Source: Flavobacteriales bacterium (lineage in GTDB: Bacteria > Bacteroidota > Bacteroidia > Flavobacteriales_C > GCA-002722245). Taken from it: a DNA stretch of 34,883 nucleotides. The notes below the pieces were generated by a model. The model worked only from the letters and a program-made list of their open reading frames with translations, was not told the DNA's origin and did no database searches. Location: assembly GCA_023251075.1 (NCBI GenBank), contig JAHEZM010000031.1:1-34883 (forward strand). Reading direction: 5' to 3'. The translations under genes and the position numbers were made by a program. Shown piece by piece: positions 28,293-31,528 of this stretch. Each line of letters opens with the position of its first letter. Position 1 is the stretch's first letter.

Positions 28293-30203
28293 TTAGGCTT
28301 TCACTGGAACCAAAGCTCCTTTGATAATTCCATCAACAACAGATGGATCAAGCAATGTAGAAGTGTCTCCTAAATTAGAAACATCACCTTCGGCTACTTT
28401 TCTTAAGATTCTTCTCATGATTTTTCCAGAACGTGTTTTAGGTAGACCCGGTACAATTTGAATTTTATCTGGTTTGGCAATCGGACCAATAATTTTAGTC
28501 ACGATATCCAATACTTCTTTACGGAAAGCATCCTCGTTTTCAATTTTCTCTTCGCAAATTACATAAGCGTAGATTCCTTGTCCTTTAATCTCATGAGGAT
28601 AGCCTACCACTGCAGATTCAATGATTTTCGGATGTTCGTTCAAAGCGTTTTCCACTTCGGCAGTTCCCATACGGTGACCGCTTACATTGATAACGTCGTC
28701 TACTCGTCCGGTAATTCTATAATATCCATTTTCATCCCTCTTACAACCATCGCCAGTGAAATATTTGTTTTCGTAAGTAGAGAAATAAGTTGTTCTGCAT
28801 CTTTCGTGATCACCGTAAGTAGTACGAATGATCGAAGGCCAAGGGAATTTAATACATAAGTTACCTTCAACATCATTCCCCACGATTTCTTTTCCTTCAG
28901 CATCCACCAAAATCGGTTGAATACCTGGCATTGGTAAAGTTGCGTAAGTTGCTTTTTCTTTGGTTACTCCAGCCATTGGTGAAATCATAAATCCACCGGT
29001 TTCTGTTTGCCAGTAGGTATCTACAATCGGACATTTTTCATGTCCGATATTTTTAAAGTACCATTCCCACGCTTCTAAGTTGATGGGTTCACCCACAGAG
29101 CCTAAAGCTCTCAATGAACTTAAATCGTATTTTTTAGGAATATCATCACCGTAAGCCATCAACGCACGAATAGCAGTTGGCGCGGTATAGAAAATATTTA
29201 CTTTGTGTTTTTGGCAAACTTCCCAGAATCGTCCGGCATCAGGATAAGTAGGAACACCTTCAAACATAACAGAAGTTGCTCCGGCCAATAGCGGACCGTA
29301 AACGATATATGAGTGACCAGTAATCCAACCTATATCGGCAGTACACCAGTAAATTTCACCTTCTTCGTATTGAAATGCATTACGGAAAGTATAGTCGGTA
29401 TATACCATGTACCCACCTGTAGTATGCACTACACCTTTTGGTTGTCCGGTTGAACCCGATGTATATAAAATAAACAAGGGATCTTCAGAATCTACTTCAA
29501 CAGCTTCGCAAGAAGTGCTTTGTTTTGGCATTTCTTCATGCCACCAGAAATCACGTCCACTTACCATCTCCACAGGAGTATTCGTTCTTTTGAAAACGAT
29601 TTGAGAAGTGATGCTCGGGCAAGTTTTTAAGGCTTCGTCCACCACGGATTTTACTGCAATAGCTTTAGCTCCACGAGGATTTCCATCAGAGGTAATTACC
29701 ACTTTCGCTTTAGCATCGTTAATTCTATCGGCCAAGGCATTAGAAGAAAAACCGGCAAATACTACAGAGTGAATTGCGCCCAAACGAGCAGTAGCCAAAC
29801 AAGCAACGGCTAACTCAGGAACCATTGGCATATACAAACAAACTCTGTCGCCTTTTTGAACACCGTGTGCTTTAAGTACATTGGCGAACTGACAAACTTT
29901 TTCGTGTAATTCTTTATAAGTTATTTTAACTGCGGCTTCGCTAGGTTCATTAGGTTCCCAAAGAATAGCCACTTGGTTGGCTCGGGTGGCAAGGTGACGG
30001 TCGAGAGCATTTTCGGTAATGTTTAATTTTCCATTTACAAACCATTCTACTTTAGGCTCTTTAAAGTTCCAGTTTAAAACCTTATCCCATTTCTTTTTCC
30101 AAACAAATGATTCCGCTTGTTCAGCCCAGAAAGCTTCAGGTTGATCAACACTTTTTTTGTATTCTCTTTGGTAATCTTCGAAAGTTCTAATTCTTGTGGC
30201 CAT
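28293..30203 (-). CDS. acs: Acetyl-CoA synthetase (AMP-forming)
   Basis: Activates acetate to acetyl-CoA through acetyl-AMP. 636 residues from the ATG at 30203 (MATRIRTF), the usual family length. Motifs: YTSGSTGQPKGVVHTTGG (P-loop, about 265), TYWQTETGG (about 412), YFTGDGCKRDENGYYRITGRVDD (about 500) and the C-terminal SGKIMRRILRK whose Lys is acetylated in many species. An in-frame TTG at 30329 would add 42 residues, but that extension runs into a repeat element and has no family match, so it is rejected. Downstream is a strong terminator; upstream is the repeat element, so acs is likely transcribed alone. Confidence 0.96.
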   Translation of the reverse strand: MATRIRTFEDYQREYKKSVDQPEAFWAEQAESFVWKKKWDKVLNWNFKEPKVEWFVNGKLNITENALDRHLATRANQVAILWEPNEPSEAAVKITYKELHEKVCQFANVLKAHGVQKGDRVCLYMPMVPELAVACLATARLGAIHSVVFAGFSSNALADRINDAKAKVVITSDGNPRGAKAIAVKSVVDEALKTCPSITSQIVFKRTNTPVEMVSGRDFWWHEEMPKQSTSCEAVEVDSEDPLFILYTSGSTGQPKGVVHTTGGYMVYTDYTFRNAFQYEEGEIYWCTADIGWITGHSYIVYGPLLAGATSVMFEGVPTYPDAGRFWEVCQKHKVNIFYTAPTAIRALMAYGDDIPKKYDLSSLRALGSVGEPINLEAWEWYFKNIGHEKCPIVDTYWQTETGGFMISPMAGVTKEKATYATLPMPGIQPILVDAEGKEIVGNDVEGNLCIKFPWPSIIRTTYGDHERCRTTYFSTYENKYFTGDGCKRDENGYYRITGRVDDVINVSGHRMGTAEVENALNEHPKIIESAVVGYPHEIKGQGIYAYVICEEKIENEDAFRKEVLDIVTKIIGPIAKPDKIQIVPGLPKTRSGKIMRRILRKVAEGDVSNLGDTSTLLDPSVVDGIIKGALVPVKA

Positions 30204-30300: not shown

Positions 30301-30532
30301 TTCATCATTGCGAGATTTTTTGTACTCAAAAATGAAGCAATTATATTTAATTGCCGTTGGTTTTAACCAACGGAAAAAGAATGCCCATAGAAGGCTTTAG
30401 CCAAAAAAAATGTTTCGGCTAAAGCCAATTATAAAAACAATCAAATCCATCGGTTAAAACCGACGGCAATTGAAATTAAAAACATTATAAGATTGCTTCA
30501 TTTTCGGGTACAAAAAATATCGCAATGACGAA
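30301..30532. repeat. Composite nested inverted-repeat element (MITE- or REP-like)
   Basis: About 232 bases that fold back on themselves in three layers. Outer arms (30301-30343 and about 30490-30532) are about 43 bases with only a few mismatches; they carry TCATTGCGA and ATGAAGCAAT. Middle blocks (30350-30373 and 30447-30470) complement each other and each is itself a palindrome (CCGTTGGTTTTAACCAACGG and its CCATCGGTTAAAACCGACGG form). The inner hairpin (30393-30402 and 30417-30426) pairs GGCTTTAGCC with GGCTAAAGCC. There is no coding frame. Layout fits a non-autonomous mobile repeat; the short palindromes resemble REP units mobilised by RAYT transposases in Bacteroidota. It fills most of the 341-base gap between the heptose kinase stop and the acs start. 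Confidence 0.88.
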
Positions 30533-30544
30533 ATAGGGGGGGAT

Positions 30545-31528
30545 TTACTTTATAGACTCACTCAATAACTGTAATTTATTTATGGGCACAACACCCACCT
30601 TTTCGCAAACCAAACCACCAGCCAAATTTGATATTCGAACAATATCTTCATCGTTTAAACCTGCTGCTAAAGCCAATGATGCAACAGCGATAACAGTATC
30701 ACCTGCGCCACTAACATCGGCGATGTTACGTATTTCAGCAGGAACATGAACTTCTTTTTCACCGCATATTAAGGCACCTTTTTCAGATAAGGTGATAAGC
30801 AGTTTATCGATGTTCAATTCGGCTTTAAATTTTTTAGCTTTCTCTTTAAGAGTATCTAAATTGAATACTTCCCAATCTATTTTAGTGCCCTCTACAAATT
30901 CTTTTAAATTGGGTTTAAATAGAGTAGCACCTTTGTAGAGAAAGAAATTAGATTTTTTAGGATCAACAGTAACAGGAATGTTTTTGACTTTCGCCATAGC
31001 AATGGTTTCTCTAATTACTTTCTCGGTTAAAACTCCTTTGTTGTAATCTTCTAAAATGATGACATCTATTTTTTTAGTGTTTAACAAAGAAGAAATTTTT
31101 TCAATAAAGTTTTTTTCTGAAGTTGAATCTAAATATTCTGTAGTTTCTTCATCTACACGTAACATATGATGTGCAGAACTAATGATGCGGGTTTTAGAAG
31201 TTGTTTTACGGGATTTATCGATCACCATTCCTTCCGCAGAAAGGTTGCTTTCTTTCAATAATTCTAAAAAAGAATCTCCTTTACTATCGTTGCCAATTAC
31301 TCCGCAAAGTATAGGTGTAGCGCCTAAGGCAACAATATTTAAAGCCACGTTGGCAGCACCCCCCAAACGGTTTTCACGTTTGCTGATAGACACTACAGGA
31401 ACCGGAGCTTCGGGAGAGATTCGGGAAACGTGTCCCCATAAATAAGCATCTACCATTGAATCTCCAACAATCAAAACTGTTTGATTGTTGAAGGATTCAA
31501 AGGCTTTTTCTATAGATGCTTTTGACAT
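30545..31528 (-). CDS. rfaE1: D-glycero-beta-D-manno-heptose-7-phosphate kinase
   Basis: PfkB/ribokinase-fold sugar kinase of 327 residues matching the N-terminal half of E. coli HldE: LIVGDSMVDAYLWGHVSRISPEAPVPVV (about 18-45), RLGGAANVALNIVALG (about 54-69), ILEDYNKGVLTE, and the catalytic DVSGAGDTVIAVASLALAAG (about 269-288). It makes heptose 1,7-bisphosphate for lipopolysaccharide core heptose. The adenylyltransferase half of HldE is absent here and, as in many species, would be a separate gene elsewhere. It starts six bases after the aminotransferase stop, so the two are co-transcribed. Confidence 0.88.
   Translation of the reverse strand: MSKASIEKAFESFNNQTVLIVGDSMVDAYLWGHVSRISPEAPVPVVSISKRENRLGGAANVALNIVALGATPILCGVIGNDSKGDSFLELLKESNLSAEGMVIDKSRKTTSKTRIISSAHHMLRVDEETTEYLDSTSEKNFIEKISSLLNTKKIDVIILEDYNKGVLTEKVIRETIAMAKVKNIPVTVDPKKSNFFLYKGATLFKPNLKEFVEGTKIDWEVFNLDTLKEKAKKFKAELNIDKLLITLSEKGALICGEKEVHVPAEIRNIADVSGAGDTVIAVASLALAAGLNDEDIVRISNLAGGLVCEKVGVVPINKLQLLSESIK

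Follow-up and report, generated by a model that had tools for sequence, protein, structure and literature searches.

What is the nested palindrome that lies between the rfaE1-like and acs genes, and which enzymes could have spread it? In the window, the whole 34,883 nt stretch of DNA analysed, the structure covers 232 bp. Outer arms of 46 nt (30301–30346 and 30487–30532, 87% complementary), middle arms of 34 nt (30341–30374 and 30446–30479, 82% complementary) and an inner hairpin (30393–30406 and 30413–30426, 93% complementary) have one common centre. The features of the locus are as follows.

28293–30203, minus strand: acetyl-CoA synthetase gene (acs), the neighbour on the other side from the kinase gene
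30301–30346, plus strand: left outer arm, a putative CGTC-type REP with the core CATTGCGAG..ATTTTTTGTACTCAAAAAT..GAAGCAAT
30351–30469, no strand assigned: whole inner module, a putative four-hairpin MITE (TTGCC...GGCAA) resembling the two ends of a subclass-1.2 tnpA element joined together, with the gene absent
30351–30373, plus strand: left middle hairpin, a TTG tag followed by CCGTTGGT-TTTA-ACCAACGG
30393–30402, plus strand: left inner hairpin, GGC-TTTA-GCC, found upstream of tnpA in the complete element
30417–30426, plus strand: right inner hairpin, GGC-TAAA-GCC, which often contains the tnpA stop codon in complete elements
30447–30469, plus strand: right middle hairpin, CCATCGGT-TAAA-ACCGACGG followed by a CAA tag
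30470–30490, plus strand: linker A (TTGAAATTAAAAACATTATAA), a CGTC-dimer interior common to the composite copies and resembling the MITE-less dimers of a relative
30487–30532, minus strand: right outer arm, a putative CGTC-type REP in inverted orientation with its tag intact
30545–31528, minus strand: PfkB carbohydrate kinase gene (rfaE1-like), a neighbour, with the nested element after its 3' end

The inner pair of hairpins corresponds to GGCTTTAGCC and GGCTAAAGCC. The left outer arm can form a hairpin of its own or pair with the right outer arm. Computed folds of 30301–30532 give one long stem on both strands, with –115 kcal/mol on the minus strand (shuffle mean –45, z –16) and –106 kcal/mol on the plus strand (shuffle mean –43, z –14.5); none of 200 shuffles equalled the real sequence. 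The sequence-only reading had described three nested layers about one centre between rfaE1 and acs, able to form one long stem from a single strand, and the coordinates of all layers and the computed folds bear this out. All three layers are present, but the middle and inner ones belong to one element, not two.

The draft genome that contains the window (3.28 Mb, 45 contigs; G000) was searched for copies of the nested element. About 16–19 relatives of the module, some with the whole structure and others with large parts of it, were found together with dozens of lone outer arms. The copies fall into three classes: composites of arms, linkers and module; modules with one arm or none (no arms at C7:26488 and C25:5778); and arm dimers with other interiors (no module at C44:164897–165032, C10:93394–93529 and C25:463–597). 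Many module-less outer-arm dimers are also present in genomes of the same genus. The nine composite copies that were aligned have a mean column identity of 85%, and 19 base pairs have changed on both sides with pairing kept. In most composites two non-palindromic linkers are held in common, one on each side of the module, which indicates that the composite was copied as one unit. The copy on C26 has its module inverted relative to the linkers, and that on C29 has two different arm types. Solitary 'double-foot' hairpins (AATTGCC-hairpin-GGCAATT), of the form expected from a central deletion of the module, occur at loci L041, L044 and L045. Several contigs (C41 and C17 at the start, C25 at the end, C38 at the start) end inside module copies or beside tnpA, and the copy numbers are therefore lower bounds. 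An Rfam search with the element returned chance-level matches only, far below gathering scores.

The element is thus multicopy and modular, neither single nor without relatives. The proposal that one repeat family had inserted into or merged with another gains support, since each layer is found without the other. That unrelated palindromes came to share a centre by chance has little in its favour beyond the abundance of palindromes and several short chance pairs. Set against the nine full composites and the fold z of –16, its probability is close to nil, and the multicopy composites already refute it.

A RAYT or other transposase had been proposed as a possible partner, and two Y1 transposase genes were found in the genome of the window, on contigs C38 and C36. 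The C38 gene is flanked by the middle and inner layers, and a half-module directly adjoins it. The C36 gene (C36:23746–24291) encodes a REP-associated tyrosine transposase with the motif YIHQNP, subclass 2.6-like, and was rejected as a partner of any layer, as its ends are an unrelated 61-nt inverted repeat (97%). Copies of this 61-nt repeat lie inside a CGTC dimer in a second genome of the genus (G001:C1, L181). None of the layers carries a GTAG tag, and the element is thus not assigned to the RAYT/REPIN (GTAG REP) group.

Subclass 1.2 of TnpA_Y1 is defined by the protein motifs DH[IV]H, WQ and YxxxQxxHH in about 148 aa (PMC6006769). The predicted product of the C38 gene, legible for 142 aa up to the contig end, has a Y1_Tnp domain and the motifs DHIH, WQ and YIYNQESHH, and can be placed in this subclass on its motifs. 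Beside this gene there is a degenerate tandem array of GGCAATTGA/GGCATTTGAT units between two half-modules (C38:545–880, L050).

Homologues of tnpA were found in 153 of 295 genomes of the class. Just upstream of tnpA, hairpins with TTTA/TTCA loops were present at 24 of 30 loci and in none of 28 distant windows of the same loci; downstream, mirror-form hairpins were present at 18 of 30 loci and in one of 26 distant windows. By a strict test, one hairpin end or both are missing at about 20–40% of tnpA loci. At 11 of the 30 loci the tnpA stop codon is overlapped by the inner motif or directly adjoins it, for example as CAT GGC TAA AGCC. The stem sequences of these flanking hairpins vary between genera, and the loops and layout are conserved. 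A joined-ends pattern, GGCTTTAGCC-N5-35-GGCTAAAGCC, occurs in 24 of the 295 genomes, and all 24 have tnpA (background 153/295, p = 5.6e-8 with shared ancestry ignored). Within the genus, tnpA and module matches were found only in G000 and G001, and G002 and G003 have arms alone.

The matching ends beside tnpA, together with a pattern that tracks the presence of the gene, suggest that the inner module (30351–30469) is best read as a non-autonomous MITE of an IS200-like Y1/HUH element of subclass 1.2. Its ends are those of the autonomous element, and it has no coding capacity. In the literature, subclass 1.2 is tabulated as having no REP, and typical terminal structures are described in the text as generally absent (PMC6006769). 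The hairpins found here upstream and downstream of tnpA contradict this reported trait, which is not the basis of the class. An HUH transposase subclass that had been reported without a DNA partner thereby gains well-defined ends and non-autonomous copies.

The outer arms differ from the module in kind. The CGTC REP superfamily, which includes Neisseria dRS3 and Rickettsia RPE and is also found in the Bacteroidetes, was described as having a CGTC tag, a stem of 8–9 bp that starts with AT, a loop of 4–5 nt and a mostly head-to-head dimeric arrangement, with no dedicated transposase; a short unpaired tail, CCA, is present in most members but not all (Di Nocera et al., 2013; PMC3733652). The outer arms fit a head-to-head dimer of such a REP. 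The tag is intact in the right arm (GACG at 30527–30530, CGTC on the minus strand), degenerate in the left (CATC at 30303–30306) and CGTC in other copies. The stem starts ATTGC/GCAAT, with a secondary hairpin in place of the loop that is longer than the 4–5 nt described, and the arms continue into CTTAT-like linkers, with no CCA tail seen. In paired copies of G000 and G002 the tags point outward, and the arms are multicopy and extragenic.

Many CGTC dimers are present in G002 and G003, in which neither tnpA nor module matches were found. The interiors of the G002 dimers, such as TTTTTAATTTCAAATTACTTAA, align with a G000 composite from which TTGCC...GGCAA has been removed (TTTTTAATTTCAATTTACTGG). 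This alignment sets different species and different members of a repeat family side by side, and is not one of a single orthologous site. It appears that the MITE inserted into a CGTC dimer without target duplication. These MITE-less dimers with a matching interior, and the linkers common to the composites, further strengthen the proposal of an insertion or merger. At rfaE1–acs itself, relatives offered no empty site at base resolution, since the genes next to rfaE1 are not the same in them. Elsewhere in the genus, CGTC arms about 430–470 bp apart bracket other sequence (G003:C75:1837–2303, L193; G001:C13:21038–21516, L063/L055). The interior of L193 includes a short ORF (MKTFEKTTLPKTIYLYPHQDF...), and these interiors may hold further cargo genes.

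A small gene for a GIY-YIG nuclease lies inside some of the CGTC dimers of genus mates. Six genes of the MERGGWVYIL type in this genus have identical arms on both sides or on one, and uvrC genes, which also encode a GIY-YIG domain, are not bracketed by arms. Repeats of the GTCATCCTGAGGAACGAAGGA type bracket the genes of a second subfamily (MDHNYFVYIL). A third kind is found beside tRNA genes: at L198, L199, L210 (C5:636 in the genome of the window) and L225, a small GIY-YIG gene follows immediately after a tRNA gene and has partial copies of the tRNA beyond it, an arrangement that resembles insertion of a tRNA-targeting homing nuclease. Tandem GIY-YIG arrays with a spacing of about 320–350 bp were also seen (G217:C1:2899250–2900416 and 2314355–2314917; L358, L362, L367, L370, L372, L373).

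The pattern extends beyond the genus and across several phyla. Amongst 27 further GIY-YIG loci across the class, taken as the best matches to one query protein, a CGTC repeat lies within 200 bp on both sides in 17 and on one side in three, and the arms closely abut the gene on both sides; both-sided CGTC repeats were present in 0/29 tnpA loci and 2/72 distant windows. In plasmid and chromid records from alpha-, beta- and gammaproteobacteria, one cyanobacterium and Spirosoma, 11 of 14 GIY-YIG genes have GTC-tagged palindromes on either side, and these differ in sequence (e.g. CGTCATCCCCGCGAAGGCGGGGATCC and CGTCATTCCCGCGCAGGCGGGAATC). The flanked genes come from Azospirillum, Sinorhizobium, Rhizobium, Novosphingobium, Shinella, Sphingobium, Neorhizobium, Neisseria, Aeromonas, Planktothrix and Spirosoma. 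A bacterial scan of 80 loci gave a strict tagged hairpin on both sides at 31/76 loci, as against 0/70 windows 650–900 bp away, and on at least one side at 49/76 as against 3/70 such windows; 27 of the 76 had no strict CGTC hairpin.

Presence of the nuclease family also follows repeat abundance. It was found in 45 of 53 CGTCATTGCGAG-rich genomes and in 68 of 242 others (p = 1.6e-14, shared ancestry ignored). The query found no match in eight CGTCATTGCGAG-rich genomes, of which two are incomplete and some carry GIY-YIG genes of other kinds. One complete genome (G048) has 588 CGTCATTGCGAG sites and only long, uvrC-like GIY-YIG genes, with none standalone, which points to amplification or persistence in the absence of the candidate enzyme; the repeats can thus be maintained without the nuclease. 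In the draft genome of the window, no cognate CATTGCGAG-flanked GIY-YIG gene was found, and those GIY-YIG genes that stand alone have different flanking sequences. The outer enzyme may therefore have been lost or may lie in an assembly gap, and the copy in the window may now be immobile.

The association between GIY-YIG genes and CGTC REPs is well supported. The tags point outward, and distinct subfamilies have distinct flanking palindromes. The solved relatives of the bracketed nuclease are UPF0213 proteins (PDB 1zg2 and 1ywl), a family that has been grouped with Slx1 (PMC1564403). In the open-access literature, GIY-YIG was not found combined with CGTC REPs, dRS3 or RAYT in the sense proposed here; of the open-access REP papers, one contains GGCTTTAGCC, and there it lies solely within a GTAG REP of Haemophilus. 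The outer arms probably have a GIY-YIG nuclease as their partner and not a RAYT, and this nuclease is a strong candidate for the enzyme that CGTC REPs have been said to lack.

These associations could be read in other ways. CGTC dimers might be passive, an intergenic safe harbour into which small selfish GIY-YIG genes, MITEs and other repeats insert, so that bracketing would reflect target choice. The dimers of this genus do hold varied cargo (the MITE, copies of the terminal repeats of the C36 RAYT and other small ORFs), and some GIY-YIG genes lie beside tRNA genes instead. We nevertheless consider this rather unlikely, as the bracketing repeats differ between phyla yet retain the CGTC-AT hairpin form, different subfamilies have different palindromes, repeat abundance tracks the gene, and the arms are tight against it on both sides. 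Spread of the composite by TnpA alone, with the CGTC arms as passengers, would account for the presence of tnpA in the genome of the window, where full composites occur, and for the lack of composites found in tnpA-less genus mates. This is unlikely in view of the common unit, which runs beyond TTGCC...GGCAA to take in both linkers and the arms, and of the separate occurrence of MITEs without arms and arms without MITEs.

Host selection for a functional RNA or DNA structure, such as a bidirectional terminator or a stabilizer of mRNA 3' ends, would fit the very stable RNA fold, the covariation of the arms and the genomic position of the copies, 12 of 17 scorable ones lying between convergent genes and none between divergent genes. 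Avoidance of promoters alone would, however, account for these positions. Copy number and position vary amongst species of the one genus, the genes beside rfaE1 differ in relatives, with no such element after rfaE1, and the conservation of structure and loops reaches the ends of the transposase gene. Selection of this kind is accordingly quite improbable as the main explanation, and a pure terminator reading was ranked lower; given the mostly convergent positions, transcript ends may be affected as a by-product.

The explanation we favour, and regard as likely, is that a MITE lies within a CGTC dimer, that the composite has multiplied, and that the bracketing GIY-YIG nuclease is a candidate for the outer enzyme. 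From the observed anatomy, copy structure, gene associations and MITE-less dimers, the following route may be proposed. TnpA would bind the hairpins in single-stranded DNA and move the MITE in trans, and the MITE would enter a CGTC dimer with no target duplication. The composite of arms, linkers and MITE could then multiply as a unit, the outer system carrying the inner as cargo; that linkers and arms travel with the module suggests spread through the outer system. Slx1 cuts branched DNA, so hairpins or cruciforms would be a fitting substrate for its relatives. A structure-selective GIY-YIG nuclease may cut the extruded REP hairpins or cruciform, after which repair would copy the CGTC dimer elsewhere.

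On balance, we lean towards the wider view that CGTC REPs form a second, RAYT-independent REP system, in which an Slx1-like GIY-YIG nuclease spreads its own CGTC hairpins and their cargo by cutting branched DNA, and that the subclass 1.2 Y1 transposases with their four-hairpin MITEs form a third. CGTC REPs are known from five phyla or more, with Neisseria, Rickettsia and rhizobia among their hosts. If the proposal is true, a consistent enzyme partner makes the question of which enzyme serves them biochemically testable, a widespread 'hypothetical' GIY-YIG family gains a function, and a non-HUH route to short palindromic repeats is added.

Amongst known systems, the C38 TnpA is nearest to the Y1 transposases of IS200 type (NF033573), with ISHp608 as one of the solved relatives, and the element shares with IS200/IS605 and their MITEs the subterminal hairpins and the apparent insertion without target duplication. 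It differs in having no typical IS200 ends but two hairpins per end, mirrored inverted-repeat ends and conserved TTTA/TTCA loops. As in RAYT/REPIN systems and REPtrons, short inverted palindromes flank a small endonuclease gene, and non-autonomous dimers are scattered; here, however, the outer system has a GIY-YIG nuclease as its partner in place of a tyrosine transposase, and the inner is paired with subclass 1.2, reported to have no REP (PMC6006769). The bracketed nucleases share the minimal domain and the conserved Tyr, Arg and Glu of Slx1-like standalone GIY-YIG proteins, but are bracketed by CGTC REPs; a term search of PMC1564403 gave no mention of palindromes. With the CGTC-tagged REPs the outer arms have in common the tag, the AT-initial stem, the head-to-head dimers and the occurrence in Bacteroidetes, and they differ in that the CCA is not seen, a longer extra hairpin serves as the loop, a MITE lies inside the dimer and a GIY-YIG nuclease is associated with the repeats.
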